A stretch of 64,000 nucleotides of DNA. Source: Ulva prolifera (lineage: Eukaryota > Chlorophyta > Ulvophyceae > Ulvales > Ulvaceae). A model generated the notes under the pieces. The model ran no database searches and was not told where the DNA came from. It saw nothing but the letters and a program-made list of their open reading frames with translations. Shown piece by piece: positions 7,590 to 56,860 of the stretch; within the stretch, counting starts at the first letter, position 1; each line of letters starts with the position of its first letter. A program made the position numbers and the translations under genes. Where the stretch lies: the NCBI GenBank assembly GCA_023078555.1, contig CM041204.1, forward strand, positions 96,923-160,922. The letters run 5' to 3'.

Positions 7590-7591
7590 CC

Positions 7592-12857: not shown

Positions 12858-12971
12858 ACACGCAGCAAGGGGAAAAAGGGTGGGGCTGGGAAGAAGGCGA
12901 AGCGGAGCAAGGCTGCAAGGCAGGGCAAGAAGGGGAAGCACGCCAAGAAGGGCAAGAAGGGACGTGCATAG
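12858..12971 (+). pseudogene. P0: truncated last exon of an array P gene
   Basis: The 38 codons from 12858 to the TAG at 12969-12971 encode the Lys/Gly tail ending AARQGKKGKHAKKGKKGRA, in the KAKRSK subtype shared with P2 and P5. Upstream homology stops exactly at the CATA tail of the retrotransposon. No exon 1-3 or first half of exon 4 is present. The normal downstream sequence is retained, including the TGTAA at 13081-13085. It is a gene remnant cut by the LINE junction. Confidence 0.9.
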
Positions 12972-15900
12972 TTGTACAGGTTTTCTTAGCTTGTTTGATT
13001 TACCAGCATTTCGCCCGATAGTGTAGTGGTTCTATGATTAAGAGAGGAGTGATGGTCGTGGTGGAGAGGCTTGCATGCTGTGTAACACAAAACTTTCATC
13101 CTCCTTCCCTCATGGGCAGCCCCCATGCATGAGTGTTGTTCACATATTGTTTCCCCAGTTCCCCAACGCGTGATTCTAATTGTAATGCAATGCTGTCACT
13201 TGCAGAGCGAGGGCTCTGATCTCATCAATCACAATTACCTATGGTCCCGCATACACCTGCATATGAGATTGAGTCGCAAGTTGCACAGACAGGTTGTGTG
13301 TGAAGCGCAGGGCACTGGGGTGCGTCAGAGGGCAGCACTGCCGCTTGACCACTCCCCCACCCGCTCGGCAGGTGTCCGTTGGGCTCCAGCGGGCCAGCAG
13401 GCGGGTTCAGACTGCGCTCCGCTGCCTGGTCGCTGTCAGTACACGTGAGGCTGGTGCGTCTGCATGGCAGCCCCAGTATCAGAGCCACGCTACGTGGAAG
13501 TCGCTTCAAGCATGCTGCGGACTGGCCTCATGCTTGTGTGGGATCACGCGTGGTTTGACTTGCGCTATGGGTTGTCCAAATGAAGCGACTACACATGCCC
13601 AAATTCGCCGCCAAGCACGGCCTCCGCTGCAAAGCATGGCCGCTCCTGCACGCACCACAACCCACCTCACATCCTCACGCAAGCAGCAGCCAACGCGCAA
13701 GCCTTCTCAGGGGACCTCTGGGGTGACCCTTGGCACATCGTGCCGGTGAGTCACAACCGCTGAACGTGCAAAGTCTCGGCTACATGCAGTACTTGCTCGG
13801 TGCAATGTAGCGGGCGCACACCCACTTCTCATACAGGTACGGCACATCACAACAGGTTGGCGGAAGTTGAGCCAGTGGCAGATAAGGCGCAGTGCGTGGG
13901 GGGGGGGGGGGGGGGGCACCTCCTCGATGACGATAGGGTTGGCGCCGCACCGCGGCTGCGGTGGAGTGCAGCGTGAAGGACAACAGCGTTGTACTGCCCG
14001 ATGTGTGCGTTCACCACCCCCACTGCAGTCTCCTGAATGGCCTCACCCACCTGTAAGCAACGCACACATCCCCCATAGTGCTGCAAATGCAAGTCTATGG
14101 AGCCAGACAGACCACGCCACGCTGTCAGCACGTGTGCCTGCTGAGCCCGTAGCGACCACGCTGCGCGCTGTGCGAGGGAAGGGGAAGACGAAGTGTCGCA
14201 CCCTGACACGACCAAGGCGTCGCCCTGCAGCCGCTGGGCGACGGCCAACATGCGTGCGCTTGATCGCGCTCGCGCTGCCAGACACCTCGGCCAGTCAGAT
14301 CGAGATGCCACCAACATCACGGCAGTGCCGGCGACGACGGTCAGCGCCGACGCCGACTTGTCGCCGCCGCGCGCATCACCTCTGCTGCCTGCTGTGGGCA
14401 AAGCGCAACTACATCTCATGCATTACAGCCAGGACTGAGAATGGCAGTCGAGTAAGTAGACTGCCAATGCACGTAGATGGCTTGCTGAGAACTATACGAG
14501 ACCACGCCACGTGAACGAGACCAACTTGATGTAACGCGACACATATAGCATGGCTGGCAAAAGTCTAGAACAAGGGCACAGAGCCCACCTGCGTGCTGCG
14601 TGTCTGCTGGCACTGGCACTTCTCTTTAAACTGCGGTCGTCTGTGCTTGCCTGGGCCAATGCGATCATGCACGGCCGCTGGGCTGCAAGGAGAGCCAGGT
14701 GCCATCGACTAGCAGACGTAGACCTCACACATCTCAGGATGGCTACCTGTGTGCCATCACGGTGGTAATCGTAGCGGAGGTGACCAGCACTGCCCAGGTG
14801 CAAGACCGGCTCGATGGTGTCTACTTTGTGGATGACTCACCCTGCATGCATGTGCCAACAGCATATAAAAATATAACGAGTCCTTGAAGAACTAACTTGC
14901 TGCGCTGTCTTCCGTCCACGGGACATTGGTCTGCGCACAGGTTCACAGACCCGAAATGAAACATGCCATCGCACAGCTCCGAAGGCAGTGCATCAGGCAC
15001 ACCAGGTGTGCCTTACAGATGTGTCGTAGGAGACAAGAACCCTTGTAACAGTGTCTGAACAACTGCAGTCTTGGCACACCTGATGCCACCAGGTCCCATT
15101 TCCCACTGCACCGCCTACTCTAGCGTTGGCGACATTGCTGGCCTCGACTCTCCGGGCAGGATAACTGTCAAAGATTCAACAACGATTCTTCAAACAGCAC
15201 GCACGCTTTGATACGTAGTGACGCCAGCTGAAAGTAACCCCACGCTATACCTGAGGACTCGCAAGGTGCTGTTCCGCTTGTCAAGCAAGGTCGACATGCC
15301 GCCATTTGAAGAATTAGGGCAAATCGAGGTGCGATGCCTAAAGCTTCGGCCCATATAAAAAAACAGGTCAATCATGGACGGTCTCAAGGAGGTGAGGGCT
15401 ATAGCTAGCTCAATTATCTTCGCAGGCGCAGCATTACACGGAACACAGTGACCAAAGCCTCGTGCTGACCAATGTCTTGGTGCACCTGTAAACCTGTCTC
15501 TTGTGCGCCGCTCACATTGGCCTGGACACTGACAGAAGCAAATGCGTGACCGACACACTTGACGACACCTCATGCCGGGGCATCTCTGCACCTGCACAGG
15601 CGTTCACGGTGGTGTAAGTATGGCAGCAGCAGAAACGAAAGAAAAGGACAGATGATGCCTTGGTAAACAGGTGGCATTTCACCCCACATCCTTTGAACGC
15701 GGCACGCGTTCGGTAGGTGTTGTGTTGGAGCTTTGGCAACTGAAATCAATGCCTGATACAATCCGCTAGCATTCTGCATAGATTAAATTGATTGTTTTGG
15801 AGCTCGTCAATTACAGTCTCCTCACGCTGTTCACGGATGCGCGGCAGTCTGACGTCTCTCCATCTGGCGCGGGCTGCAGCGCACTCGCGACAAAGAACTT

Positions 15901-16410
15901 ACGAGTTGAAGTCAAGTCTTGCAGCAGGAGCATTTCATCTCAAACATGGACACAGTCTCCTGGTCCAGCAATGTACTGAACAGCATACAGCGTGACCCAG
16001 CATGGCCATTCAGAAATCTAATATCAAGTAGAATGATATTACTTGTTCGCAGGCAGAGGAAACAGACAAATTTGAGCTGCATCTGTACATCCTTTCAGTT
16101 CGGCATGTGACCGGGAACTCATCTTGAAACATTGCACTGCATGTGGGCGCTGCAAGTGGTTCCACGATCCTCATGCAGCCACTGCCTAAAGATCGAGGCA
16201 TCTTGGAACAGATGCAACGAATGGCCGTGTTTCTCATGGAGGTCACAGCTGTGCACATGACTTTGTGACGGCTCGTTTATCACGCCAGGTTGGTTACATG
16301 ATGTGCCTATGCACCCTTCACACTCGTCCCTGTGCACTCTCACAGATTGTACTGGATATCTAGATGCACTGTCTGTCAACGAAATCAGGGAATACCGCAA
16401 CACTGACGCT
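12972..16410. other. Convergent spacer S1 between P0 and M1
   Basis: The spacer is almost identical to spacer S3 (29037-32470), with only a handful of base and small indel differences seen by eye. It contains a 19-G run at 13898-13916, conserved blocks shared with all spacers (for example GGCTCTGATCTCATCA near 13213), and on the minus strand a decayed exon-like block near 15720-15960 that is open in S4 but broken here. The TTACA at 16294-16298 is the minus-strand TGTAA signal of M1. Several moderately long ORFs (13294-13749 +, 13847-14419 -) have no recognisable product. Confidence 0.6.
13898..13916 (+). repeat. Poly-G tract (19 G) in spacer S1
   Basis: A homopolymer within S1. The equivalent site in S3 (29959-29976) has 18 G, as expected for slippage between recent duplicates. 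Confidence 0.95.
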
Positions 16411-18121
16411 CTACGCACGTCCCTTCTTGCCCTTCTTGGCATGCTTCCCCTTCTTCCCCTGCCTTGCAGCCTTGCTCCTCTTCTTCTCAGCCCCACCCTT
16501 GTTCCTGCTGCTGTGTTGCTTGGGGGCATTGTCTTGTCCATTCGCAGCACCCACATGAGAGGTGGCAGAATCCCCAAATTGTGCAGCAGGCGCGAACAGG
16601 TCTGAAGAGAATGCATCTGCCTCGGGCGACAGTGGGAACTCAGGCACCTGGCCTGCAAGCGAGCGGCGGCGGAATGGCACTTCAGCTTCTGTCGAATCAT
16701 TCGGCATTTTGAGCCGGTTCTTCGAGGTGCATTCATCGGCAGCGCCGATATCAAGGTCGGCAGGGCAGGCAGCCTTGCCGCTGATTGAGGCCATGAAGTC
16801 CACTGCAGCTGCAAAGCCTTCCTGAGAGTCGGTCGTATGTGGCTCAGCGATGGATGACGTTGATTCCGAGAATGCAGAGCTGCTGACGGCGCCATCACTT
16901 CCATCGACACCATCCATGAACTCTTCAGCAGAGTCATCACAGCACTCGACCACGAACAACTCGCACAGGGCGTCCACCTCAGCGCCAATGTCCTCGTCTG
17001 ACACAGAGGCCTCCTCGATGTCCAGCACCTGCGCGCCACAGCCCGGCTGTGACGATGGTGACAAAAGCACAAGTACCAAGGCGAAATCGCTGTCAAACTG
17101 TGGACAAAAATGTCACAGTATGCATTATCGCACGCAGTCATCAAGGTATGCAGAAATCAACAAACAGTTACGTGTGCATACCTCGGTGGCATCAGAAACG
17201 GCAACCTTGCATGCGGAGCCAGCCAGGACAGAGTCGACTGCGGCCTGCACCATCTTGGCCACACACTCCCTGGCCTCTGATTGTGCCACGACGTTGGCAT
17301 TTGCTGTCTTCTCCAGTGTCCCCACACACGCCTTGGCTGCTTGTTCGGAGGCCAGGCGGTCCAGTGCAGCCTGGATGCCGGGGAAGCAGAAGATCGCCTT
17401 GGTGGCCTCGGTGACGTCGGGGCAGGGGGCCGGCACACGAGGCCGCACTGCGCGTTTAGATTCCGGGGCCCCGGCCAGAGCGGCTTCCACGGCCGGGGGC
17501 AGGCGGCACGGCGCGAGAGGCCGGAGGATGGCAGAGCCGTTGGCCAGAGCTGCCTGCACACGCAGCCAGGATTGTAAGTGCCTATGATTCTCGGGCGGAT
17601 GCAATCATGGCATATGGGACCAAATGTATGCATGTCAGACGGCACCATAGAAGGACTGCACGATATCTGCGGGGCGCGGACATCTTGCAGTTGCGCATCC
17701 ATATCCGTGCCAGTAGGCCGCTTGCACCATGTGCACAAGCGTGTGGCAGCAGCTTTTTCGTACGTACGAATGCGTATACGCATGCATGCGTGGGTGTGTA
17801 CTTCGGAAGCAAAGCGGACGCGAGAGCCTGACGAGCCCGGATCAAAGGCCCCACAACGAAGCGAACAGACGCAGGTCATTTGAACCAAGCGGAATACAAT
17901 CGCATGATTCACACAGCCTTATTGGTTTTGCTTGACGCTTATGAAAGCGCTACAGCCTGTAGCTACTGTGCAACGTTGTACAGCAAACAGGCCACAGCCG
18001 AGATCAGGCACCGCTTGGAATCTACAAAGAGTGCGTACATAGCGTGCTGGCTTGGGTAGCATACCTTGATTTTGTTGGTGGCTGCGTTGGTGTCGGCAGT
18101 GATCATCGATGGGACAACCAT
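16411..18121 (-). CDS. M1: leftward array gene, three exons
   Basis: Exons on the minus strand are 18121-18065 (19 aa, MVVPSMITADTNAATNKIK), 17553-17182 (124 aa) and 17028-16411 (205 aa). All junctions are phase 0 with GTATGC donors, giving 348 aa. Exon 2 is Ala-rich with a Pro/Arg segment (PRVPAPCPDVTEATKAIF), then IQAALDRLASE and one and a half 21-residue helical repeats (VKMVQAAVDSVLAG type). Exon 3 starts VLDIEEASVSDED, is acidic with ECCDD, then has RRRSLAGQVPEFPL and ends in the polylysine-like tail. It corresponds to P exons 3 and 4 fused without an intron. There is no signal peptide; the tail suggests a nuclear or nucleic-acid-binding protein (inference). It differs from M3 at GTLEKTANANVV versus GTLVKTAIANVV. 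TGTAA lies about 115 bp after the stop. Confidence 0.85.
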
Positions 18122-19104
18122 ACTGGATCTTTGGACGTACCAGTAGATAGAAGGTTGAGATTTGCTTGTAGAAAGTGCTTAGAGCGCGAATGTACTGTGA
18201 GGCGTGTGCGGTCACCGGCGTTGCGGTATACGCTCGCTGCCCTGAGGCAGGCAGCGAGCGCCGAGACATGCCAGCAATGCTCGTGCGTTGGAGCGGATCA
18301 CGCAGGAACGAGTAATGCACCCTCGTTACGTTCCTCATGTGTCTCGAACCGTCCTTGGTATGGTTGCATGCACATCCGCGGTGCAGTCTGCAGTGGTATA
18401 TGCATCGCGACCCCCGGCATTCTCCCTGTGAGCGTGCTTATTAACCATGAAAGGCTTCACACGATGCAATGTTGGCCCGTAAGATGTGAACTGCCTGGTG
18501 TGAGCAGAGGCAAATGTGGCCTTTTCCGAACAAACTGCTGCCATGACAGTAGGCTCATCGAGGCATGTCTCCAGGCATCCTGACGAGGCATATGGCAGCA
18601 CAGCCAGTTCACGATTACCACAAAGATCGTCTGTTACATCTTGGGCCCTGTCGCTGATACTAGCAGTGGCACAGTCCTGGGTCTAGAGATCAGCATGCCC
18701 TATGAGCCTGATCACAATAGATCAGAACATATTGGTGCATTGGCGGTACCCAGCATACACTACTCACGGACTGGGGGTTCATGCATTGCATGTGCTTCAC
18801 GGTCCCACTGTGAAGGCCTGGGGACGGTGTCATTGCGTCTGCATGACCTCGTCCTGCATCATCGATGAGACGTGCATGCAGCGGCGGGGCATACGTGTAC
18901 GTATACAATGCATGTGACAAATTTCAGCAACTGAGTCTGATGCTCAGCGCGTTCGATGATCGCTGAGATGTCTCGGCGCGAGCTGCACGCCTCGGTCCGC
19001 CGAGCACATAAATAGCCGCGGAAGACCACATATGCCTCAAATCTCCTTTGCTCTCGAGTACTATCTTCCTTTTCAAACAGATCTCCGATACACCAATCGT
19101 CGAA
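18122..19104. promoter_or_regulatory. Divergent promoter region of pair M1/P1
   Basis: The 983 bp between the two start codons has a core element on each side. On the P1 side, CATAAATAG at 19007-19015 lies 90 bp before the ATG, with a CTCGG-TCCG-CCGAG hairpin at 18991-19004 just upstream. On the M1 side, GTATACC (complement of 18225-18231) lies about 105 bp before the ATG, preceded by a perfect 10-bp inverted repeat at 18232-18241 and 18250-18259. Both cores share ATGTCTCGGCGC, so they are homologous and mirror-imaged. Co-regulation of the pair is inferred. Confidence 0.7.
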
Positions 19105-20817
19105 ATGGCTTTCTCTACCGTTTCTCAGACAACACCAGCTGCAGCCATCGCGCTGTCCAAGGCACGCTCTCCTATCTACGCCATTCGCTTGCGTGGAGTG
19201 TCAATGTTTGGACTTATTGTCACTACGATTTCCTCTCCTTATCGTGAACATGTCAGCCTGCCAGTGCAAACGCTCCAGCAGATCGAGCACTGTTGCCTCT
19301 AGATCTAAACAGCTGCCACCTCTTGCGTGCATACATCACATCTATCCCGTTGAGCGTTGAGCTGGCATGTTTGCCGCTGTTGTTGCGTTCGCTGCCTCTG
19401 CCCTTTGCCTCGGGCTCGTCACGCTCTCGCGTCCACTTTGCTTCCGAGTACACCCATGCATGCATGCATGTAATTCAAGACGTCCGCAGAGTCCACGCAT
19501 GTTGCTGAGCACACGTCAGCATGCATGAGAATCCTCTTCTACATTGCTGAGTGTGCCGTTCAGTTCCAGCTGTAGACAATGCATGTGTGTTTGCAGGCTG
19601 CTCTGGCTGGGGCGTCGGTGTCAGCTGCCATCCTCGAGGTTGTGGGGGCAGTCTCGGCCACCAAGGGGCTGTTCAAGAAGAGCCTGCACCCCGCCATGCA
19701 TGCGGCCCTGGACCGCCTGGCCGCTGAGGGGGCATGCATTGCCGCACAGGCCGCTGCTGCGGAAGACGAAGCCCGGGAATGCGTGGAGGCGCTCGTGAAG
19801 GCGGCAGTTGCCAAGGTCGTGGCACAGGCAGAGGCCGAAAGCCAGGTGAAGACGCTCGTGAAGACGGCGATTGCCAACGTCGTGGCACAGGCAGAGGCCA
19901 GGGAGTGTGTGGCCAAGATGGTGCAGGCAGCAGTCGACTCTGTCCTGGCTGGCTCTGCAAGCAAGGGTCCCAACCCCGAAGCCACAGAGGTGTGACCAGC
20001 TCTTCCTGATAGCCCTATGTCAGCACAGCCACGCTCACAGGTGTTGCCTTTCTGGCAGCTTTTTAGACACACTGCCACAGCGGGGCGAGGCATGCAGGTG
20101 CTGGACATCGAGGAGGCCTCTGTGTCAGATGAGGATGCTGGCATTGAGGTGGACGCTCTGTGTGACACTCTCGTGGAAGAATGCTGCGATGAGTTTGATG
20201 ATGACGATGATGTTGTTGAAGCCAACGACGCTGCTTCAAAGGTGGCAATGTCACGCGATGTCGACACCGGTGCTCCCGCCATGGATGCTGAGCTGTGCAG
20301 CAGCAAAAATCGTTTCGAAATGTTGTTCCAAGACTGCTGTGAAGACTGCGAGCCCGCATGCTTCAACGACAAGGTATGACATTGCCACTGGCTCACCACC
20401 TGGTGCACTTGCATGTGGATGCATGTCGCGCAGAGCTTCGGTGTCAACGCTAGCCTGCAGCCATCTATGAGATTCTGTCTATACTATGCACCTGTGCTGG
20501 ATGTCAGTGTTGCCTGATCATGTTGCAACGTGCAGGTAGCTGATGTGGCGGCCGGCCTGTCCAACGCTGTAGTGCCCCCCCGCCGCTGCACGCTTGCTGG
20601 CCAGGTTCCTGAGTTTCCACTTGAACATACCACGGCCGAGGTGTGTGCGGGCGCTACCTCCACCCAGATGACTGAAACTGAGGGCCCGGATGACACGTTG
20701 AAGACACGAAGCAAAGGGAAGAAGAGCGGGGCTGGGAAGAAGGCGAAGAAGAGCAAGGCTGCAAGGCAGGGCAAGAAGGGAAAGCACGCCAAGAAGGGCA
20801 AGAAGGGACGTGCATAG
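19105..20817 (+). CDS. P1: rightward array gene, four exons, GC donor
   Basis: Exons are 19105-19161 (19 aa), 19597-19989 (131 aa), 20098-20373 (92 aa) and 20536-20817 (93 aa plus stop), all phase 0, total 335 aa. Intron 1 starts GCACGC instead of GT, so it is a GC-AG intron unless a cryptic donor is used. Exon 2 is Ala-rich and helical: AALAGASVSAAILEVVGAV, then SATKGLFKKSLHPAMHAALD, then three 21-residue repeats of the form ECVxxLVKxAVANVVAQAEA. Exon 3 is acidic and Cys-containing (VLDIEEASVSDED, EECCDEFDDDDD, FQDCCEDCEPAC). Exon 4 carries RRCTLAGQVPEFPL and a 34-residue tail with 15 lysines. The alternating charge plan (helix, acid, base) could allow self-association or partnering with M, which is inference. 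There is no signal peptide or known domain. TGTAA lies at 20927-20931. Confidence 0.87.
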
Positions 20818-23800
20818 TTGTACAGAATTACCTAGCTTGTTTGACTTTCCAGCATTTCGCTCGCGAGTGTAGAGGTTCCGTGATTAAGAGAGTAGTGATG
20901 GTTGTGGTGGAGAGGGTCGCATGTTGTGTAACACACACACTTCATGCTACTTCCCTCATGGCCAGCTCCCATGCGCGAGTGTTGTTCACTTACTGTTTCC
21001 CCAGTTCACCAACGCATGACTCTCATTGTCAGCTTCATTGTAATACGAGGCTGCAATTCACAGAGCGCGGGCTCTGATCTCATCACCATGAGCTACAGTC
21101 CGGCATACACCTGCATAGGACAGGGAACCGGGATGCGTCGCAGGGCAGCACTGCCGCTTGACCACTCCCACCCCCGCTCAGCAGGTCTCCGTTTGGCTCC
21201 ACAGCGGGCCAGGAAGCGGTGTCTGGACACCACTCCGCTTCCAGCAGTTTGAAGTCAGTCCCCTAGAGGCCGGCGCGCCTGCATGGCAGCCCCGGTGTCA
21301 GAGCCTCGCGACATGGCAGTCGGTTAATACTTGCAGTGAACTGGTGTCATACTTGTGTGGGGCCGATCATGTTCAGAATGACGACACGGGTGGTTCAAAT
21401 AGGAGCCTCCGTGGCGACGTCACGAACCTTGTTGACAATCCTGAAATGTGTACACACAGTCGTCTCGCTGCTGCTGGCTGGTGTTGCACGGCGTAATCTC
21501 GATTCTTTTAAGCACATCCATTGCCATTGGTTCAGCAGCCAAAGCACTCAGGAAAAGCCTACGGGCTGTGGCTGTGCATGACTCAGTACGCATTAGCACT
21601 GTATATCACCGCCAGGCCCGCTGAACGGGCACACATGTGGCTGCACGCCCATAACCGGTGCGACGACGGCATTCATTCCCCGTACCACCTCCACCGCCAT
21701 CTCCACACGGCTACGCATCCTCACCCCCCTGAAGGCCACGCGAGCGTCTTCACAGTGCTCAGGGTGAAGTCTACTGAGCCCACCAGCCTATGCGACGCTG
21801 CATGGGAATGCGATGGCTCGCGGCTCGCAAAGTCAGCAAATGTGTGCGAGAAGGCGAAAGGACGCATCCTGGTACAGCCAAGACGTCGGCCTGTAGCAGC
21901 TGGGCCGAAATGTGTGCATCGCGCTCAACCGTAGTCATGCGGCCACACACCTCGGCGTTTTAGAAAGAATCACCACCGACGACACGCAGCACGCTGGACT
22001 CCACTGGTTTAAACCTCAAGCTCCAGCATGGACGCTGCCTTGGGTTGAGCGGATCCGAGCGCTATGTCTACGACCCAGACGACAGAGCCTGTGAAGGGCT
22101 GCAGTGTCTCCGTGCGGGCAGGAACCGCTCCGGCCAGCATGCTGCGAGTTGCGGCGTTGTGTGTCAGGGCGACGATGGTGAGCGCGGGCACTGCGGCGCT
22201 GATGCCGGGGGCTGCCGCAGTGGTGGAACATGGCGAGTTCCAGGAGCCAGCGCTCGTGGCACCACATGTGCTGGCGGCGGAAGAGTCGCCAGATGAGTGC
22301 GTGGAAGCCGGCGTGCTGGCGGGCTCTGATCTCATCACAATTACCTGTGTTCCGGCATACACCTGCATAGGACACGAGGGTGAGTCGCAGGTGGCAACTC
22401 CAGCAACCGCTTGGCAGGTCTCAATCGGGCTCCACAGCGGGCCAGGAAGCGGGGTCTGGACTGCACTCCGCTGCCTGTGTGCGAACCAGCAAGCAGAAGC
22501 AGAGGTGCTGCTAGGCTGCTGTGCGCTCCTCCACGCACCACAGCTCACCTCACAGCCCCACACAGACAGCAGCGAATGCGCAAGCCTTCTCAAGGGAAGG
22601 GGGTAGAACCTACCTGCACCGGTGTGGCGCCTCACTTGGCACTCGTTCCTGCCTTGACCAGCGGTCATGTGTGCTTGCTTGGGTCATGCATGCCCACTGG
22701 GCTCCAAGGAGATTCACAACCGCTAACAATTACGATGTGTCACCCTCACACATCTCAGGACGGATACCTCCCTTGCATCTCACAGTGGAGGACATCAGCG
22801 CTAAGGTGTAAGGGCGGCTCGATGGCGTCTACTTCTTCCATTCTCAGCCCTACGTATATGTAATCATCTATGAGTTTCTAGCATCACTCCAAGATCAACT
22901 TGCTGCGCTGTCTACCATCCATGCCACATTGGTCTGCAGGCCCGGGACAGGATGACAGGTCCGAAACGAGTCCTGCCGTCGCAGAACTCTGAATGCAGTG
23001 CATCTGAGTCGGCAGGTACACGTCACAGGTATACAGGTGTGTCTTACCGACACCCCAGAATCTTTGTGACAGTGTCTGAGCAGCTGGAATCTTGGCACAC
23101 CTGCTGCCACCTGGTCCCAATGCCAAGCCTACTCTGGTGTGGGAGACATCGCTGGCCTTTATCCTCCGTGAAACGTAACTGTCATAGACTCAGTCACGAT
23201 TTTGAACACTGCACGCACGCTTTGCGAGCTAGTGATGCCAGCTGCATGTAGCACCACCCAGTCCTGAGGACTCCTAAGGTGCTCTACTGCTTGTTAGGAA
23301 AGGTCGACAGGCCGAAAGATAATAACACATGTAAAATTATAGTTCGTGTATGATGCCTGACGTCTCGGCTCATTTCGAGGGAACAGATCAAGACTGCACG
23401 GTCTCAGGGAGTGTTACGTCGAGCGCAGATACCTTCGGGAGGCACAGCAGTACACAGAGAGCAGTGACAACATCGCCATGCTAAGAAAATATCTGTTTCA
23501 CATGCAAACGCGTCTCTTGTGCGCCGCTCACATCGTCCTGGACTCTGGACAGTGACACATGCGTGACAGACAAACACTTGACGACACCTCGGGGCATCTC
23601 TGCGCCCGCAAAGGTATTGACGATGGCGGAGACTTGGCAGCAGCACAGCTGAAAGGAAGAGACAGATATTGCCTTGGTGCACAGGTAGCGTTCGACCTGA
23701 CGGCCTTTGAATGCGGCTCACGTTCGGTAGGTGTTGTGTTCGAGCTGGTTCCTGGCCGATTGCTTTGGCAGTTGTCATCAATGCCTGATACAAGTCGATA

Positions 23801-24272
23801 TATTGGAGGAGGAGGTTGTCCATCTAGCCTATGCAACGAATAGTCTCCTGGTCCAGCAGCATACTGACCAGCGTACATCCAAGCCCAGCATGCCCATTCA
23901 GCGCTCTAGTATTAAGTAGAATGATCCATCACGTTCACAGCCGGAGGAGACAGGCACTTGTGAGCTGATTTTGCACAGCTTTTACGTTTGACATGTGAGC
24001 GGTGACTCAGTTTAAAACATTGCCTTGAAGTGGTGCCATCATCATCATGCAGCCTACAGATCGAGGCACCCAGGAACAGATACGATGGATGGACGTGTAT
24101 CTTAACAAGGACACAGTTGTGCACCAGAAAATGTGACAGCTCATGCCAGGTTGGTTACACAAGGTGCCTATGCACCCCTCGCACTCCTCTCCGTGTGCTC
24201 TCACAGATTGTACTGGATATCTACACGCACTGTCATTCAACAATTTGCGAAGAACAATACACAAATTGTAAT
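20818..24272. other. Convergent spacer S2 between P1 and M2
   Basis: The spacer is related to S5 throughout and to S1, S3 and S4 in blocks. The GGCTCTGATCTCATCAC block occurs twice (near 21067 and 22320), suggesting an internal duplication. A plus-strand open frame at 22064-22606 spans the second copy but has no recognisable product. The minus-strand exon-like block near 23690-23900 carries a TAG (complement of 23824-23826) where S4 has TGG. The TTACA at 24155-24159 is the polyadenylation signal of M2. Confidence 0.55.
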
Positions 24273-25985
24273 CTACGCACGTCCCTTCTTGCCCTTCTTG
24301 GCATGCTTCCCTTTCTTCCCCTGCCTTGCAGCTTTGCTCCTCTTCTTCCCGGGCCCACCCTTCTTCCTGCTGCTGTGTTGCTTGGTGGTGTTGCCTTGTC
24401 TATTTGCAGCGCCCACATGAGAGGTGGCAGAGTCCTCACATTGTGCAGCAGGCACCACCAGTTCTGTAGAAGATGCATCTGCCTCAGGCGACAGCGGAAA
24501 CTCAGGCACCTGTCCCGCAAGCGATCGGCGCCGGGGGGGAACTTCAGCTTCTGTCAAATCTTCCGGCATGTCGAGCCACTTCCTTGTGCTGCCTTCAGCG
24601 GCGGCACAGGAATCGAGGTCGGCTGCAGAGGCAGCCGTTCCTTTGATCTCGTCTGTGACCTCCACGGCAGCTGTGAAGGCTTCTTGCTTGTGCATTGTGT
24701 GAGGCTCCACAATATTATTGTACAAATTGTTGTCAGACGAGGTGAGAATTGCAGCGGCGCCATCACTTCCGGCATCGACAGCAGCCAAGAACTCCTCAGC
24801 AAAGTCATCACAACACTCGACCACCAGCAACTCGCACAGGGCGTCCACCTCAGCGCCAATGTCCGCTTCTGATACGGAACCCTGCTCCATGTCCAGAACC
24901 TGCACACCAGACCAAGCTGTGACAACGGTGCCGAAGGCTACCCTGACTCTCCTATGTCGCTGTGACAATAATCTCAAACGAATTGCGCTCATGCATCCTC
25001 ACCAACCGGCGTCACGTTGAGCAGATCCAACAATCCCTCCTGGAGCTTGCATACCTCGGTAGCATCAGGATTGCCCCCCTTGCTTGCAGCGCCAGCCAGG
25101 ACAGAGTCGACTGCAGCCTGCACCATCTTGGCCACACACTCCCTGGCCTCTGCCTGTGCCACGACATTTGCAATGGCTGTCTTCACCAGTACTTCCACAC
25201 ATGCCTTGGCTGCTTTTTCTGCGGCCAGGCGGTCCAGTGCAGCCTGAATTCCGGGGAAGTGGAAGATCGCCTTGGTGGCCTTAGTGACCTCGGGGGGGCA
25301 GGGGGCCGGCACACGAGGCCGGCCTGCGCCTCCTGATGCTGCGGCCGCGGCAAGAGCGGCTTTCACGACCGGGGGCAGACGGCAGGGCGCGAGAGGCCGG
25401 AGGGTGGCCGAGCCGTTGGCCAGAGCTGCCTGAACACGCAGCCAGGATTGTAAGTGCCTATGGCTCTCGGCCCCATGCGCGCAGTCGAATGGCATAGACC
25501 ACATGTATGCATGTCCATTGGCAACAGACAAGGACTGCACGATATCTACGGGGCGTGAATGTGTTGTAGTAGCTATCCATAGCCGTGCCAGTAGGTCGGC
25601 ATGTGCACAAGCGTGTGGCAGCAGCTTCGTCGTACGCATGCATGCGTGGGTGTACTCGGAAGCAAAGCAGACGCGAGAGCCTGACGAGGCCGATGCAAAG
25701 GCCCGAGAACGCAGCGCACAGACGCAGGTCCGACTAAGGTATTGGAGCCAAACAGACAAGAATCGCATAAATCACATAGTAAACAATTTGATCGATGACA
25801 TGCTTGACGCTGATGGGAGCGCTACAGCCTGTAGCTATTGTGGAACGTTGACAGGATACAGCCGACATCAAGCACCACTCGGAATCTGCAAACAGTGTAT
25901 ACATAGCTCACAGGATCGGTGAGGATACCTGAATATTTTTGGTGGCTGCCTTTGTCTCGTCAGTGATCATCGATGGGACAGCCAT
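24273..25985 (-). CDS. M2: leftward array gene, B subtype
   Basis: Minus-strand exons are 25985-25929 (MAVPSMITDETKAATKNIQ, 19 aa), 25429-25055 (125 aa) and 24899-24273 (208 aa), all phase 0 with GTATCC and GTATGC donors, total 352 aa. Exon 2 ends in the helical repeats TAIANVVAQAEAREC and MVQAAVDSVLAGAA. Exon 3 begins VLDMEQGSVSEAD, differing from the A-subtype VLDIEEASVSDED. It keeps ECCDD, RRRSLAGQVPEFPL and the Lys tail. A long acidic insert contains SSDNNLYNN. The subtype is shared with M5, which has the same exon 1. No defect was seen. Confidence 0.85.
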
Positions 25986-38066: not shown

Positions 38067-38088
38067 GGGGGGGGGGGGGGGGGGGGGG
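38067..38088 (+). repeat. Poly-G tract (22 G) in spacer S4
   Basis: An uninterrupted G run at a position not shared with the S1 and S3 tracts. Confidence 0.95.
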
Positions 38089-44228: not shown

Positions 44229-45853
44229 ATGGCTTTCTCTACCGTTCAGACAACACCAGCTGCAGCCATCGCGCTGTCCAAGGTACGTTCTCCTATCTAC
44301 GCCATTAGCATGAGTGATTCGTCACGGCTTGATCTTATCGTCGCATCGAATTCCTGGGCTATAATCAACATGGCAGCCTGCCAGTACAAACGTGCCAGCA
44401 GATCGAGCTCTGTTGCCTCTAGACAGCCGACACCTTCTGCGTGCATAAGTCACCTCTGACACGTTTACCGTTTACCTGTCGTGTCTGCCGCTTTCGTTGC
44501 GTTTGCTGCCTCGGCCCTTTGCCTCGGGCTCGTCACGCTCTCGCGTCTGCTTTGCTTCCGAGTACACATGCATGCATGCATGTAATTCTGGACGTACGCA
44601 TAGTCCACGCATGTTGCTGAGCACACGGTAGCATGCATGAGAAAGCTCTTCTACATTGCTGAGTGTGCCGTTCAGTTCCAGCTGTAGACAATGCATATGT
44701 GTGTTTGCAGGCTGCTCTGGCTGGGGCGTCGGTGTCAGCTGCCATCCTCGAGGTTGTGGGGGCAGTCTCAGCCACCAAGGGGCTGTTCAAGAAGAGCCTG
44801 CACCCCGCCATGCATGCGGCCCTGGACCGCCTGGCCACTGAGGGGGCATGCATTGCCGCACAGGCCGCTGCTGCGGAAGAAGAAGCCCGGGAATGCGTTG
44901 AGACGCTCGTGAAGACGGCAGTTGCCAACGTCGTGGCACAGGCAGAGGCCAGGGAGTGTGTGGCCAAGATGGTGCAGGCAGCAGTCGACTCTGTCCTGGC
45001 TGGCTCTGCAAGCAATGGTCCCAACCCCGAAGCCACAGAGGTGTGACCAGCTCTTCCTGATAGCCCTATGTCAGCACAGCCACGCTCACAGGTGCTGCCT
45101 TTCTGGCAGTGTTAGACACACTGCCACAGTGGGACGAGGCGTGCAGGTGCTGGACATCGAGGAGGCCTCTTTATCCGATGAGGATGTTGGCATTGAGGTG
45201 GACGCCCTGTGTGACACACTCGTGGAAGAGTGCTGCAATGAGTTTGATGATGATGACACTGTTGAAGCCCACAACGCTTCTTCACAGGCGGCGATGTCAC
45301 GCAATGTCGACACCGGTGCTCCCGACGTGGATGCCGCTGAGCTGTGCAGCAACAAAAATCGATTCGAAATGTTGTTCCATGACTGCTGTGAAGACAGCGA
45401 GCCCGCATGCCTCAACAAACAGGTGTGACAGTGGCTCACCGCCTGGTGCATGTGGATGTATGTCACGCAGAGCTGCAGTGTCAAGGCTACCTGTAGCCAT
45501 CTGTGTGATTATGTCTATACTATGCACCAGTGCTGGATGTCAGTGTTGCCTGATCATGTTGCAACGTGCAGGTAGCTGATGTGGCGGCCGGCCTGTCCAA
45601 TTCTGCAGTGCCCCCCCGCCGCCGCACGCTTGCTGGCCAGGTGCCTGAGTTTCCGCTTGGACATACCCAAGACGAGGTGTGTGGGGGCACCAATTCCCCG
45701 CAGGTGACTGACACTGGGGACCGGGATGACACGTTGAAGACCCGCTGCAAGGGGAAGAAGAGCGGAGCTGGGAAGAAGGCGAAGAAGAGCAAGGCTGCAA
45801 GGCAGGGCAAGAAGGGAAAGCACGCCAAGAAGGGCAAGAAGGGACGTGCGTAG
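44229..45853 (+). CDS. P4: rightward array gene, chimeric and one repeat shorter
   Basis: Exons are 44229-44282 (18 aa), 44711-45040 (110 aa), 45147-45422 (92 aa) and 45572-45853 (93 aa), all phase 0, total 313 aa. Exon 1 and intron 1 are of the GT-donor subtype of P2 and P5. Exon 4 is of the KAKKSK subtype of P1 and P3. Exon 2 lacks exactly one 21-residue repeat (63 bp), leaving two. Exon 3 has the EFDDDDTVEAHNASS variant shared with P5. The frame is intact. TGTAA lies at 45964-45968. Confidence 0.86.
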
Positions 45854-49157: not shown

Positions 49158-50865
49158 CTACGCACGTCCCTTCTTGCCCTTCTTGGCATGCTTCCCCTTC
49201 TTCCCCTGCCTTGCAGCTTTGCTCCTCTTCTTCCCGGGCCCACCCTTCTTCCTGCTGCTGTGTTGCTTGGTGGTGTTGTCTTGTCTATTTGCAGCGCCCA
49301 CATGAGAGGTGGCAGAGTCCTCACATTGTGCAGCAGGCACCACCAGTTCTGTAGAAGATGCATCTGCCTCAGGCGACAGCGGAAACTCAGGCACCTGTCC
49401 CGCAAGCGATCGGCGCCGGGGGGGAACTTCAGCTTCTGTCAAATCTTCCGGCATGTCGAGCCACTTCCTTTTGCTGCATTCAGCGGCGGCACAGGAATCG
49501 AGGTCGGCTGCAGAGGCAGCCTTTCCTTTGATCTCGTCTGTGACCTCCACGGCACCTGTGAAGGCTTCTTTCTTGTCCATTGTGTGAGGCTCCTCAATAT
49601 TATTGTACGAATTGTTGTCAGATGAGGTGAGAATGGCAGCGGCGCCATCACTTCCGGCATCGACAGCAGCCAAGAACTCCTCAGCATAGTCATCACAACA
49701 CTCGACCATCACCAACTCGCACAGGGCGTCCACCTCAGCGCCAATGTCCGCTTCTGATACGGAACCCTGCTCAATGTCCAGAACCTGCACACCAGACCAA
49801 GCTGTGACAACGGTGCCGAATCATACCCTGACTACGCTTGTCGCTGTGACAATATGCTCAGACGAATTGCGCGCATGCATCCTCACTGACCGGCATCACG
49901 GTGAGCTGATCGAACAATCCATCATGCAGCTTGCATACCTCGGTGGCATCAGGATTGGCCCCCTTGCTTGCAGCACCAGCCAGGACAGAGTCGACTGCAG
50001 CCTGCACCATTTTGGCCACACACTCCCTGGCCTCTGCCTGTGCCACGACATTTGCAATGGCTGTCTTCACCAGTACTTCCACACATGCCTTGGCTGCTTT
50101 TTCTGCGGCCAGGCGGTCCAGTGCAGCCTGAATTCTGGGGAACCGGAAGATCGCCTTGGTGGCCTCAGTGACCTCGGGGGGGCAGGGGGCCGGCACATGA
50201 GGCCGGACTGTGCCTTCAGATGCTGCAGCCCCGGCCAGAGCGGCTTTCACGACCGGGGGCAGGCGACAGGGCGCGAGAGGCCGGAGGATGGCAGAGCCGT
50301 TGGCCAGAGCTACCTGAACACGCAGCCAGGATTGTAAGTGCCTATGGCTCTCGGCCCCATGCAGTCGAATGGCATAGACCACATGTATGCATGTCCGATG
50401 GCAACAGAAAAGGACTGCACGATATCTACGGGGCGTGAATGTGTTGTAGTAGCTATCCATAGCCGTGCCAGTAGGTCGGCATGTGCACAAGCGTGTGGCA
50501 GCAGCTTCGTCGTACGCATGCATGCGTGGGTGTACTCGGAAGCAAAGCAGACGCGAGAGCCTGACGAGGCCGATGCAAAGGCCCGAGAACGCAGCGCACA
50601 GACGCAGGTCCGACTAAGGTATTGGAGCCAAACAGACAAGAATCGCATGATTCACATAGTAAACAATTTGATCGATGACATGCTTGACGCTGATGGGAGC
50701 GCTACAGCCTGTAGCTATTGTGGAACGTTGACAGGCTACAGCCGACATCAAGCACCACTCGGAATCTGCAAACAGTGCACACATTGCTCACAGGCTCGGT
50801 GAGGATACCTGAATATTTTTGGTGGCTGCCTTTGTCTCGTCAGTGATCATCGATGGGACAGCCAT
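49158..50865 (-). CDS. M5: leftward array gene, B subtype
   Basis: Minus-strand exons are 50865-50809 (identical in protein to M2 exon 1), 50313-49939 (125 aa, starting VALANGSAILRP) and 49784-49158 (208 aa, starting VLDIEQGSVSEAD), all phase 0, total 352 aa. Exon 2 contains TAIANVVAQAEAREC and MVQAAVDSVLAGAAS. Exon 3 has ECCDDYAEEF, SSDNNSYNN, RRRSLAGQVPEFPL and the standard tail. It is very close to M2 and intact. TGTAA is at the complement of 49034-49038. Confidence 0.85.
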
Positions 50866-52217
50866 CCTGAATCTTTGGATGTATTCGTAGATAGAAGGTT
50901 GAGATTTGATTGTAGAAAGAACTTAGAGAGCGAAGGTACTATGAGGCGTGTGCGTCGCCAGCGGTGCTTTATACGCTCGCAGACCGGAGGCAGGCAGCGA
51001 GCGCCGAGCCATGCCAGCAACGATCGCGCGGTGGAGCAGATCACACAGGATTGCTACTTCACCCCAATTACGTGTTGAATGCGACTCAAACCGCCCGTGG
51101 TATGGTTGCATGCACATTCGGCGGTGAAGTCTGCAGTGGTATATGCATTGCGACCCCCGGCATTCTCCTTGTGAGCTTGCTTACTACACTTGAAAAGCTT
51201 CACACATAAACCTGTGTCATGATATGCATGCTTCACTTCGCCTGCGATGCTCCAGCGTCTGTCCTCCCGGGCATCACACATGTGATGATCACGCAGCTCA
51301 ACTGGCAAGGCTGCAGCCTGCAGCTGAAATTCCCCTGCCAAAATGCACACAGCGTAGAGCCTTACACTTGTTGCTGTGTACATGTATGACGAGACAAGCT
51401 TGCCACACTGACAGGCATGGCCGATGCCGGGGGTTGTGTGCACTCTTGAACAATTTACAGAGATCCTGTTCAAGTTGGGAACAAAGCATCCTGAAAATAT
51501 GAAGCATGGGATATTTCCTGCCGCATCTGGCCTTATATCGAAATATGCAACGCCCGCACAATCCTTCACATGCCTGTTTTGAGCAGAGGCATGCCTCTGT
51601 GCAAATTTAAATGTGGCATTTCCTGACCTCAAACAAAGTGCAGCCATGACAGCACGCACGTCCAGCCATGCTTCCATAGATGCATATAGGCATCTCAGCG
51701 AGGCATACGGCAGCGTAGACATGTGAACCTTTACCACAATTGTTTAAAGATCCCCTGTCATATCTTCCCTGTCCCTGATTCTAGTAGCACCAGCATGGGC
51801 GAGCCGTATGAGCCTGATCACACTAGATCAGTAAACGTTGACGTCGATGCATGGGCGACAGCATGCTGTCATACTTTAGCCCAGGAGTGGTGGTCATGCA
51901 TTGTATGTGCTTCACGGTCCCACTGTGAATGCTTGGGGCCGGTACCATCGCATCTGCATGACTTCGTCCTGCATCATTGATGGGACGTGCATGCAGCGCC
52001 GGCTGATACGTATCTACGTATAATGCATGTGACAGATCTCAGCCACTGAGTCTGGCTCAGCGCGTTCGATGATGGCTGAGATGTCTCGGCGCGAGCTGCA
52101 CGCCTCGGTCCGCCGAGCACATAAATAGCCGCGGAAGACCGCAGATGCCTCAAAGCTCCTTTGCTCTCGAGTACTCTCTTCCTTTTCAAACATACCTCCA
52201 ATACACCAATCGTCGAA
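50866..52217. promoter_or_regulatory. Divergent promoter region of pair M5/P5
   Basis: The long B-type region is 1352 bp. The M5 TATA box TATAAAG is the complement of 50967-50973, about 102 bp before the ATG. The P5 CATAAATAG is at 52120-52128, 90 bp before the ATG. It is almost the same as pair 2, with small indels such as an extra ACATGT near 51379. Confidence 0.7.
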
Positions 52218-53935
52218 ATGGCTTTCTCTACCGTTCAGACAACACCAGCTGCAGCCATCGCGCTGTCCAAGGTACGTTCTCCTATCTACGCCATTAGAAT
52301 GAGTGATTCGTCACGGCTTGATCTCATCGTCGTATCGAATTCCTGGGCTATAATCAACATGGCAGCCTGCCAGTACAAACGTGCCAGCAGATCGAGCTCT
52401 GTTGCCTCTAGACAGCTGCCACCTCTTGCGTGCATATATCACATCTATCCTGCCGAACGTCGAGCTTGCATGTTTGCCGCTCTGGATGCGTTCGTTGCCT
52501 CGGCCCTTTGCCTCGGGCTCGTCACGCTCTCGCGTCCACTTTGCTTCCGAGCACATGTCTGGTGCACATGCATGCATGCATGTAATTCTAGACGTACGCA
52601 GTGTCCACGCATGTTGCTGAGCACACGTCAGCATGCAGGAGAAAGCTCTTCTACATTGCTGAGTGTGCCGTTCAGTTCCAGCTGTAGACAATGCATGTGT
52701 GTTTGCAGGCTGCGCTGGCTGGGGCGTCGGTTTCAGCTGCCATCCTCGAGGTTGTGGGGGCAGTCTCGGCCACCAAGGGGCTGTTCAAGAAGAGCCTGCA
52801 CCCCGCCATGCATGCGGCCCTGGACCGCCTGGCCGCTGAGGGGGCATGCATTGCCGCACAGGCCGCTGCTGCGGAAGAAGAAGCCCGGGAATGCGTCGAG
52901 ACGCTCGTGAAGGCGGCAGTTGCCAACGTCGTGGCACAGGCAGAGGCTGAAAGCCAGGTGAAGACGCTCGTGAAGACGGCGATTGCCAACATCGTGGCAC
53001 AGGCAGAGGCCAGGGACTGTGTGGCCAAGATGGTGCAGGCAGCAGTCGACTCTGTCCTGGCTGGCTCTGCAAGCAAGGGTCCCAACCCCGAAGCCACAGA
53101 GGTGTGACCAGCGCTTCCTGATAGCCCTATGTCAGCACAGCCACGCTCACAGGTGTTGCCATTCTGGCTGCTTTTTAGACACACTGCCACAGCGGGGCGA
53201 GGCATGCAGGTGCTGGACATCGAGGAGGCCTCTGTGTCAGATGAGGACGTTGGCATTGAGGTGGACGCCCTGTGTGACGCTCTCGTGGAAGAGTGCTGCG
53301 ATGAGTTTGATGTTGATGACACTGTTGAAGCCCACAACGCTTCTTCAAAGGCGGCGATGTCACGCAATTTCGACACCGGTGCTCCCGACATGGATGCCGC
53401 TGAGCTGTGCAGCAACAATAATGGATTCGAAATGTTGTACCAAGACTGCTGTGAAGACAGCGAGCCCGCATGCCTCAACAACAAGGTGTGACATTGCCAC
53501 TGGCTCACCACCTGGTGTCCTTGCGTGTGGATGTATGGCACACAGACCTGTAGTGTCAACGCTAGCCTGTAGGCACCTGTGAGATCATGTCTACTTCCGT
53601 GCTGATCAACTGTGCTGGTTTGCTGTGTTGCCTGATCAAGTTGCGGCGTGCAGGTCGATGATGTGGCGGCTAGCCTCTCCAATGAGGCAGTGCCCCCCCG
53701 CCGCCGCACGCTTGCTGGCCAGGTGCCTGAGTTTCCACTTGAGCATACCCCAGACGAGGTGTGTGGGGGCACCACCTCCTCCCAGATGACAGGCACTGAG
53801 GTCCGGGATGACATGTTGAAGACACGCAGCAAGGGGAAAAAGGGTGGGGCTGGGAAGAAGGCGAAGAGGAGCAAGGCTGCAAGGACGGGCAAGAAGGGGA
53901 AGCACGCCAAGAAGGGCAAGAAGGGACGTGCATAG
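52218..53935 (+). CDS. P5: rightward array gene, last copy
   Basis: Exons are 52218-52271 (18 aa), 52709-53101 (131 aa), 53210-53485 (92 aa) and 53654-53935 (93 aa), all phase 0 with a GTACGT first donor, total 334 aa. Exon 2 has three 21-residue repeats with GATTGCC intact, unlike P2. Exon 3 has the DVDDTVEAHNASS variant. Exon 4 has KAKRSKAARTGKKG, with Thr replacing the usual Gln. TGTAA lies at 54045-54049. Homology to other P downstream regions ends near 54190, which is the right edge of the array. Confidence 0.87.
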
Positions 53936-54189
53936 TTGTACAGGTTTTCTTAGCTTGTTTGATTTACCAGCGTTTCGCCCGATAATGTAGTGGTTCTATG
54001 ATTAAAAGAGGTTTGATGGTCGCGTTGGAGAGGCTTGCATGCTGTGTAACACAAAACTTTAATCCTCCTTCCCTCATGGGCAGCCCCAAAGCACGAGTGC
54101 TGTTCGCATATTGTTGTCCCAGTTCACAGACACATGATTCTCATTGTCAGCTTCATTGTGATGCCAGGCTATCATCAGCACAGCGAGAG

Positions 54190-56860
54190 CAAGCACGCCT
54201 AGGAGGGTTGTGCCTGAGTGTTCAGACTTGTCCAGGCAGACGCGAGTTTTTTTTTATTCTCATCCCTGGAATTCAGGGTGTAGCGATGTGACATAGTCTA
54301 GATATGAGTCATGGTGCTTCTGAGATCTGCAAGTTGTGTCACGCAAAGCTCTCATGCTGCCTCACTCTAGGGCAGGTCCTGTATGACCGTTTCAACACAC
54401 TATCAGCCCTGAGTCACGTAAAAGCAGCGTCATGCAAGTATTTGAAGAAGAGTGGGGATTGTTTGCAGTTCCATACCAGGGGCTTACATGGGAGGGTGGC
54501 TCAGTTGTGCAAGGTAGACGCCTCCACGAGGCTGCCCATCGCAACCAGCACAGCTGGATACATATGTGCATAGCTGGATACATATGTGCGTGCAGCCAGC
54601 TGTCCACCGTAGGAAGGGTAGCGCCTTGCATCTTGACTGACTGCCTGCGCTGCGGAATGACTGCCTGCGCCGCATACAGGACATCGGGTGGATTCACTGT
54701 CAGTCCCGTCAAGCTGTGTGTGAGCGGCGATGCTACGGGGTGCGCCTTGAGAGTCGCGGCGTGTGCTGGTAACTTCGTTTGAAGCTTGCACACGTGACAG
54801 CAAGCTCCACATCAGGCGAGGTAGTGCGCGCTACATCGCACTTTCCTGCCAATCTGCTGAATTCGCTTGCATGCCAGAGAGCGATACACCTGCATGGACA
54901 TGATTTGAGTCGGAGCCAGCACCTTGGTCGAAGCCCACTCCCATGGAAGCTGCTCCGAACATCAGTCAGTGCCTCCAGATATACACACGGGTTCATTCAC
55001 GGATCTCATGGGGTGATGAGTGAATCCATGCTGAACAGTCCGGTTGGAAGGTGTGTGTAGCAAGAGGTCTGATCGCAACAGATGTATGCAAGATCTTACC
55101 AGGCAGCCCATGACTGGGACAGACCGGCCGTTAGCTGGCGGGGGTAATCTTGGCCACCGAAAGCACCACAGCACCATTGAACAGGTACAGTGGCGACTCT
55201 AAAGGGGTGGCCTGGAAGCCCTCTGATGCTTGCAGCGGGTGGCTTGCGGACACGGCCCACATTGGAACGCACCGACAGCAAGAGGAACAAGCTGGCTTTG
55301 TGGCACAGGCCTCGAGGGTCCCTGCCTGTTGGCATGTCTCAGCCTCGCAGCCGCATCTTGGAGGGTGTGCTCTGTAATCGCCGTCACCAGTTCGATACAG
55401 CTTGCGTCCTCTTCACGCATTGATGCAAGCCCAGTTTTGGAGCATTGGTGTGTTGCGCATGTGTGTGTGTATCTCACTGCATCTTTTCTTCACATCAGGC
55501 CCGCCGCGGGTGGTCTCTGTCAGCTCCTGAATCCAGAACATAACATCTAGCATGCGTCAGTAATGCGTGCGAGTCAGGTAGAATGGAAGAGGTGAACTTT
55601 TGAAACGGATTGGCCTGTTGGAATCGGCACAGTGTAGACAATAGCAGGTGTGTGCCAGTGCACACAGAGACAAGACACAATAGCATCAGACACAACTCGC
55701 CTCCGGGAGAATGGAGAAGAATAGAGCAGTGCAATTGTTTCTGGGTTGACATCCTGACATGGCTCAGCATGCGGACCTGCCTCACACTGCACCACGGCTC
55801 AGCGTTCCCATCGTGCAACGGCGGCTTGATGGCGCCTGCTTCCGCATGCCTGGCCCTGCATACAAGCACAAACAGCGTCCATGATTGTATTAGCGGGTAT
55901 TTACGATCAAAGTTTTGGCCCTGTCTACTGTCCACGACAAGTTGACCACCGGCGCCGGCATGTGATCGAGGCAAAAATCGCACAGCACGGAGACAACGGG
56001 CACAGATGGCAACAGACCTGTGTTCGTTGTCGGTCAGACTTTCAAGTACTTGCTTCAATGCTGTAGTCGTGTGTACACAACGCCTGGCGCTGACGTCTAT
56101 CCTGTGCAGCTCATGATTCTCACGGAACTTCACTGCCTCGAACACCTCAGAGGCCGTGAGTGCATTATTGGCCTGACTTGCGCGCTCCGATCTGAATCAT
56201 GCCTGCCCGGGCCTTGAATTGTCTGTTGCGCGATGCCTTGGCCAAGTTTTCGAGAGTCCGTAGACACCGCAAACACGTGCACGCCCAAGCCACATCCGAA
56301 GGCTGCTCGACCGGGCTCCGCACACAGTTCTACTATATACGTGCACAACTGAATGTGACCATTGTATTATCCAGTGTCGCGATCACCGGTGTATGCTCTT
56401 GTATTCGCCATGGCCAATTGCACTAGCTCGACCGTCCGCACAGCGTGCCTGAAATGTGAGATCCTGACTCCCATCTGTGGGAAAAGTAACATGTTCCGAG
56501 TTGAAAAATCTTTCGTCGTTGCAATACATCTTGGCTTACGCATCGATATGCTTTGCGAGGCTATCGCCAGCGAGCACAACGTGAGAAACCTGGGATGGAC
56601 TTGCCGCTCAGCATGGATGCAGACCAGACACAGCGGTGTTGACGGTCTATCCGACTGTAAGAAGGATCGTCCGAAGCTGCTCTTGCACAGAGTCATTGCT
56701 TTCATACTGACGTGGGTGGAAACTGGTGTATGTTTCCTCGCCATGCCAGCTCTCCCACATGCTGGCAGGCACGGGGAATCGTCTGACATATTACCATGTT
56801 TAGGTCATACCACCTTCAAATGCACTAAAGAGCACTCATAGTGTCAGCACGGATGGATCC
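54190..56860. other. Single-copy flank, no gene resolved
   Basis: Array homology has ended. Short frames on both strands (for example 54304-54573 + and 55495-56145 -) show no recognised motifs. A minisatellite-like duplication (AGCTGGATACATATGTGC, twice, near 54550-54588) and a GACTGCCTGCGC duplication near 54640-54670 are visible. Upstream exons of the gene at about 56.9-58.5 kb may lie in this stretch. Confidence 0.45.

Follow-up and report, generated by a model that had tools for sequence, protein, structure and literature searches.

Ten genes on one contig of the green alga Ulva prolifera stand in five head-to-head pairs and belong to no family that we could name, which raises the question of what they encode and what has kept them paired and alike. 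They lie in a 64,000-nucleotide (nt) stretch of contig C9 (positions 96923–160922, hereafter the window); the leftward genes are termed M and the rightward genes P. U. prolifera is the alga behind the large Yellow Sea green tides and, to our knowledge, little is known about its lineage-specific genes. We modelled the genes and compared them with the whole assembly, in scans that covered 88.9 Mb in 44 contigs, and with public protein, domain and structure collections.

Paired M and P genes on two contigs

Between window positions 16411 and 53935, five M genes on the minus strand and five P genes on the plus strand follow each other in head-to-head M–promoter–P order, separated by convergent spacers and with a repeat unit of about 8 kb. 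Gene models, self-comparison and tblastn agree with the initial annotation of this DNA, which had described five leftward and five rightward genes in strict alternation plus one fragment, and we regard the existence of an array of paired M and P genes as practically certain. Matches within the window are 72–99.5% identical; a single 4.9-kb match reaches 99.5% and the others diverge by approximately 3–28%.

Pair 1 consists of M1 (348 amino acids (aa); 16411–18121, −; exons 18121–18065, 17553–17182, and 17028–16411) and P1 (335 aa; 19105–20817, +; exons 19105–19161, 19597–19989, 20098–20373, and 20536–20817), which diverge from an intergenic region of 983 bp (18122–19104). In pair 2, M2 (352 aa; 24273–25985, −; exons 25985–25929, 25429–25055, and 24899–24273) is separated from P2 (27331–29036, +) by 1345 bp (25986–27330), including a long insert that is also found in pair 5. 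Intron 1 of M3 (348 aa; 32471–34935, −; exons 34935–34879, 33613–33242, and 33088–32471) is enlarged to 1265 nt, and 989 bp (34936–35924) lie between this gene and P3 (336 aa; 35925–37632, +; exons 35925–35981, 36409–36804, 36913–37188, and 37351–37632). M4 (349 aa; 41525–43240, −; exons 43240–43184, 42678–42310, and 42148–41525) and P4 (44229–45853, +; exons 44229–44282, 44711–45040, 45147–45422, and 45572–45853) flank a region of 988 bp (43241–44228); P4 is a short form of 313 aa that lacks one 21-residue repeat. The last pair is formed by M5 (352 aa; 49158–50865, −; exons 50865–50809, 50313–49939, and 49784–49158) and P5 (334 aa; 52218–53935, +; exons 52218–52271, 52709–53101, 53210–53485, and 53654–53935), 1352 bp apart (50866–52217).

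P genes thus have four exons and M genes three. Exon 3 of both classes starts at a common acceptor, CAG|GTGCTGGAC, with one-base variants in two M copies on contig C1, so that the apparently variable stretch before the acceptor drops out. Class-specific exon-3 acceptors were rejected, as they gave stops in many copies and the common acceptor suits both classes. The donor of intron 1 is GC instead of GT in six of 14 P models (position 19162 in P1).

A second, larger cluster of the family is located on C1 at approximately 4.51–4.61 Mb, and a further single member at 389 kb on C9. Exact sites encoding LAGQVPEF, part of a motif shared by M and P, number 24 in the genome (C1, n = 14; window, n = 9; C9:389329, n = 1), compared to none for the reversed pattern. 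Altogether 28 places were modelled on C9 and C1 (14 P, 14 M), and the spliced frame is intact in 24 (12 P, 12 M), including nine of the ten window genes. The exception in the window is P2, whose exon 2 has 392 nt against 393 or 396 in the other long P copies and is frameshifted. The remaining three are a related P gene on C1 (4530–4532 kb), likewise with a 392-nt exon 2 and split by a long interspersed nuclear element (LINE); an M copy without 5′ exons (C1:4538.9 kb); and a chimera (C9:389106–390551) that joins a P-type exon 2 to an M-type exon 3 and has no recognisable exon 1. Judged by promoter positions, C1 holds seven head-to-head pairs as well as one M start and three P starts without partner; strict M/P pairing is a feature of C9. 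The copy count of the C1 array is a lower bound, because a run of 4970 N (C1:4532688–4537657) interrupts it. One partnerless P start (C1:4532048) adjoins this run and its partner may be hidden there, and the P promoter at C1:4537687, for which no gene body was recovered, borders it on the other side.

A selected protein family with few detectable relatives

Differences in exon length among 25 copies (13 P, 12 M; all modelled places but the LINE-split P, the partial M, and the chimera) are multiples of three except in P2, and introns are not so bound. Variable sites are most frequent at third codon positions, with counts at positions 1, 2, and 3 of 52, 35, and 78 in P (p = 0.0002) and 92, 98, and 143 in M (p = 0.0009). 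Pooled ratios of nonsynonymous to synonymous divergence (dN/dS), calculated like the motif counts over the 24 intact copies, are 0.43 within P, 0.52 within M, and 0.51 between P and M. By segment, the ratio is lowest in the LAGQV block (0.17–0.22) and the lysine-rich tail (0.13–0.28) and highest in the linker that follows the LAGQV block (0.87 within M), and it exceeds 1 in no segment tested. Intact frames, frame-preserving indels, an excess of third-position changes, and dN/dS below 1 together identify a protein-coding family. TGTAA, the usual green-algal polyadenylation signal, follows the stop by 109–119 nt in all ten window genes, a count made without a chance control. As judged from these comparisons among copies, most copies are shown to be intact and their protein to be held by purifying selection, most strongly at the LAGQV block and the lysine tail.

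The 24 intact proteins are 313–353 aa long; the four tested have isoelectric points of 4.9–6.0 and combine overall acidity with a basic tail. M and P have a common plan of helix, acidic stretch, LAGQV block, and lysine tail, as had been proposed for all genes together with the exact motif LAGQVPEFPL; the plan holds, while the motif is exact in 21 of 24 intact copies and reads LAGQVSNFPL in M4 and LAGQVSDFPL or LAGQVPVFPL in two C1 copies. Similarly, the expectation of small basic-tailed proteins proved right for the tail and wrong for the proteins as a whole, given the acidity of the four tested and the length of all. Exon 2 of P1 is alanine-rich, and its model consists of two long helices (131 residues; mean predicted local distance difference test score (pLDDT) 66.5; predicted template modelling score (pTM) 0.37), and the model of M1 exon 3 is almost without structure (mean pLDDT 49.0). 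The long form of P exceeds the short form by 21 residues, or three heptads in length. The conserved block, RRxS/T-LAGQVxxFPL, lies between the acidic stretch and the lysine tail and matches in 21 of 24 copies, as a pattern only, the consensus [RK][RK]x[ST] before non-proline of protein kinase A (PKA) and other basophilic kinases.

The initial annotation could not place these proteins in a known family and advised profile and structure searches, and both kinds of search left them unplaced. Among six members scanned, no Pfam or NCBIfam match exceeded the curated cut-off; below it, Pfam gave three weak matches, each in one member (best E = 0.0057), and NCBIfam one (E = 0.92). A sequence search of the PDB returned a single match (E = 5.3), and a fold search of the PDB with the exon-2 model returned 55 matches at E ≤ 10, none of which reached 0.001 (best E = 2.2). 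In a database of 5.8 billion proteins, the P1 protein, entered as an older splice model with 13 extra residues, had no match at E ≤ 1 among the 7997 candidates sharing most words with it. A profile of M exon 3 had one match among the 7992 best word-sharing candidates, a fragment of 138 aa (E = 4.4e-24, 59% identity over 33% of the query) from an assembled contig of 2861 bases that resembles M genes and may derive from the same or a near species. A plastocyanin gene on C6 encodes a mature protein that equals PDB 7pcy in 98 of 98 residues and the UniRef entry PLAS_ULVPR (Ulva prolifera) at 100%, which makes U. prolifera or a very near relative very probable as the host. Used as a control, plastocyanin recovered Ulva proteins at 85–100% identity, as single records and one assembled fragment, so that a complete Ulva proteome may be missing from the database. 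The lack of relatives hence speaks against a wide distribution in other algae, and not against presence in other Ulva species. Among viral contigs, 59 stretches fit a pattern and none was a relative. The motif and tail strings were absent from the literature text searched, which mostly lacks subscription papers, so that prior publication is possible, and word searches of the literature gave results that were largely not about Ulva and nothing that pointed to the family.

Two probable relics lie outside the arrays, a P exon-3 fragment at C5:4864104–4864199 and an M tail at C9:1407252–1407440, which suggests that the family predates the present arrays. A weak match at C2:1382765–1382950 is a doubtful relic. 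To judge by these searches, M/P is a lineage-restricted, tandemly amplified family with divergent pairs. The earlier proposal of a new system goes beyond this evidence, and what stands is the tandem amplification of a family within one genome.

Shared control elements and probable exchange between the arrays

A promoter element, ATGTCTCGGCGC, occurs ten times in the window at up to one mismatch, once before each gene, compared to 0.45 matches expected. It starts at 18968 (to 18979), 27194, 35788, 44092, and 52081 (+) before P1–P5 and at 18258 (to 18269), 26121, 35072, 43377, and 51001 (−) before M1–M5, with one mismatch in three of the M sites. In extended form it has 35 genome-wide matches at up to three mismatches (reversed control, n = 15). 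All 28 matches with at most one mismatch fall inside the arrays (15 P-type, 13 M-type), among them the P start at C1:4537687 and the M start of the partial copy, and the other seven carry two or three mismatches. The putative regulator-bound sequence of the arrays is GCTGnnATGTCTCGGCGCnnGCTGC; as no other place in the genome matches the element as closely, a dedicated regulator perhaps recognises it. A TATA-like scan places CATAAATAG at −98 ahead of all five window P starts.

Intron 1 carries another element, GGCTCGTCANGCTCTCGCGTCC, with ten window matches against none expected, located at 19413 (to 19433), 27629, 36227, 44527, and 52516 (+) in P1–P5 and at 17817, 25670, 34631, 42938, and 50550 (−) in M1–M5, again with one mismatch in three M sites. 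Genome-wide, 26 of its 27 matches at up to three mismatches belong to the M/P family (reversed control, n = 5). Matches among related copies are not independent, and the comparison of M with P is the informative one: the intron-1 regions of M1 and P1 are 85% alike over 74 bp, and the pooled synonymous distance between the classes is approximately 0.87. The elements show that M and P have a common origin and share a control region private to the family; co-expression does not follow from this alone.

The window and C1 also share a large block. Window positions 6778–26557 correspond to C1 4530343–4510560 in inverted orientation, with 99.68% identity over 19.8 kb, and this block carries a LINE, a P tail fragment, M1, P1, and M2 and stops short of P2. 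The LINE (6778–12776) encodes endonuclease and reverse-transcriptase domains in an open reading frame (ORF) at 8033–12757, as identified with Pfam, and precedes the fragment (12858–12971, +), which is the 3′ end of a P gene from the lysine-rich tail to the stop (tblastn to P1 residues 310–348, 90%) without its 5′ part. On C1 (4524153–4532050), the split P gene is present with both parts: the 5′ part extends to approximately 4530343, followed by the LINE, and the tail resumes at approximately 4524263, the split being in the last exon. As the window retains only LINE and tail, the start of the shared block is apparently at the LINE, which suggests that 20 kb came to C9 from C1 with an edge at this element, the direction being our inference. 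A further LINE copy, 99.68% identical to that of the window, lies near the C1 array at C1:4500807–4506805.

Exons of single genes differ in their nearest relative. For the M gene at C1:4582372, exon 2 is closest to C1:4574392 (96.5%) and exon 3 to C1:4597967 (94.8%), and P copies of C1 and C9 are intermixed by similarity. Comparisons of this kind show that copies have recombined. The reverse transcriptase (8033–12757) falls outside the pairs, and no transposase, integrase, or reverse transcriptase was found in the spacer ORFs scanned. These were ten of the longest spacer ORFs, none of which had a Pfam match above cut-off (best weak match, E = 0.025; shorter or broken frames were not scanned). 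Exchange, both among divergent paralogues and from chromosome to chromosome, can be studied cleanly in these arrays.

Interpretation and competing explanations

The best reading of the data is an Ulva-lineage family that has been homogenised by recombination. As a possible function, M and P would be made together under one regulator, and their related alanine-rich helices would let them self-associate or pair with each other. With a lysine tail after an acidic and probably disordered middle, each would have its charges segregated and would probably be located in the nucleus or nucleolus, where it may bind nucleic acid or chromatin in high dose, and the basophilic-kinase site RRxS/T-L before LAGQVxxFPL may switch a docking segment. 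Charge-segregated nucleolar and chromatin proteins likewise combine an acidic middle, a lysine-rich tail, and low predicted structure, but M and P have no above-cut-off match to any named family. The joint statement of an Ulva nuclear family, amplified as an 8-kb unit of two divergent paralogues and acting by this whole mechanism, is tentative and stands somewhat nearer to doubt than to confidence. Doubtful in its own right is the mechanism, in which two helical, charge-segregated proteins would be expressed jointly, associate, and act on nucleic acid or chromatin, and a site next to the conserved block would be phosphorylated. We consider it rather unlikely that M and P form an Ulva-private two-part system, in which the co-made proteins would use their helices to assemble jointly into a body bound to chromatin or RNA and copy number would be tuned by unequal exchange within and between the two chromosomal arrays.

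Several observations weigh against parts of this interpretation. Both structure models are weak, which limits the claims of association and disorder, and the nuclear location is inferred from composition alone. The two promoter elements of one pair are approximately 700–1090 bp apart, and the scan that located CATAAATAG finds TATAAA on the M side in two of five pairs, so that M and P may be regulated separately; the unpartnered starts on C1 imply that pairing is not strictly required. The dN/dS values come from pooled pairwise comparisons and carry no confidence limits, and dS is uneven along the gene, which leaves room for conversion between M and P to have reduced dN as well as dS within the conserved blocks. 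Exon 2 carries a frameshift in two P copies, P2 and one on C1.

Among the alternatives, M and P could be structural or scaffold proteins needed at high dosage in the cytoplasm or plastid, such as condensate linkers, with copy number raised for yield and no role at chromatin. The helical repeats and the low predicted structure would suit this explanation, and dosage genes are typically amplified in tandem and homogenised; the lysine tail, in our judgement, suits a nuclear signal, and we hold the scaffold explanation to be unlikely. A selfish or drive-type family that biases gamete or spore survival, in which M and P would oppose or assist each other, could likewise explain the finding of no relatives apart from one close fragment, multiple copies on two contigs that share a block, and recombinant and relic copies. 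Comparison families of this type are fungal wtf and the rodent Slx/Sly arrays, and lineage-restricted tandem families under concerted evolution such as wtf are also multi-copy and recombining, with relics and no distant relatives found. M/P differs from these in its ordered divergent pairs, in purifying selection (all segments tested have a dN/dS below 1, with the lowest values in motif and tail), and in having few decayed copies (24 of 28 intact). Moreover, matches to two families of the Ulva mating-type locus lie on other contigs than the arrays of C1 and C9: RWP-RK on C2 and C3, and PRA1 on C5 and C6 (family-level matches that do not single out the mating-type genes). RWP1 is reported from one mating type only (PMC5601483). 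A drive function is, in our estimate, decidedly unlikely.

It is even less probable that the conserved block is a known docking motif, either a peptide of PAM2 type that would bind poly(A)-binding protein at its MLLE domain or a PKA anchor next to a PKA site. The spacing from L to F is that of PAM2, PAM2 proteins share a short conserved block and low predicted structure with M/P, the genome contains three MLLE matches, and RRxS/T-L is present in 21 of 24 copies. However, the PAM2 motif expression fits none of the 24 copies, and the PAM2 reading was rejected. PKA anchoring finds weak support: against the anchoring-helix consensus, scores of P copies lie within those of shuffled sequences (9–35% of shuffles score as high), and five of 12 M copies reach 1–5%. 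Histone or protamine-like genes are highly improbable. A likeness to algal histone gene organisation had been noted initially, together with the absence of a visible histone fold; the latter observation is sustained by the lack of any histone match among the six members in Pfam or by PDB sequence, and the former is not supported. Divergent histone pairs of algae, plants, and animals resemble M/P in that two classes are transcribed apart from a common region and tandem copies are kept alike, and a lysine-rich tail is present here as well, but all 11 histone-family matches of the genome (PF00125) lie outside the arrays, the genes have two or three introns, and the proteins are 313–353 aa long and acidic in the four tested. 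Equally remote is an assembly artefact or a decayed non-coding repeat. The near-identity of 20 kb between C9 and C1 (99.68%) and of 4.9 kb within the window (99.5%) and the 4970-N run in the C1 array could indicate one, but the other window repeat matches differ by approximately 3–28%, and full frames persist under selection in 24 of 28 copies, which is not expected of a decayed or falsely copied repeat.

An amplified family of this sort is ordinary as a kind of arrangement. At least 24 intact genes without a recognised relative, with all array starts behind one private promoter element, make a concrete target, and expression or a mutant phenotype, if found, would show what the lineage has invested so many copies in.

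The surroundings of the arrays gave few further features. No Rfam family was detected in the window at gathering cut-offs. Pfam matches above cut-off were found in none of ten flanking ORFs, and among seven window ORFs in the LINE alone; two long open frames near the array, at window positions 2114–3775 (553 aa) and at 134–2350 (−) of the nearby stretch L024 (738 aa), have no Pfam match above cut-off either. The three MLLE-domain matches lie within 18 kb of each other (C5:5303329–5321215) and probably belong to poly(A)-binding protein genes. Three convergent spacers contain runs of 18–22 G (13898–13916, 29959–29976, and 38067–38088).

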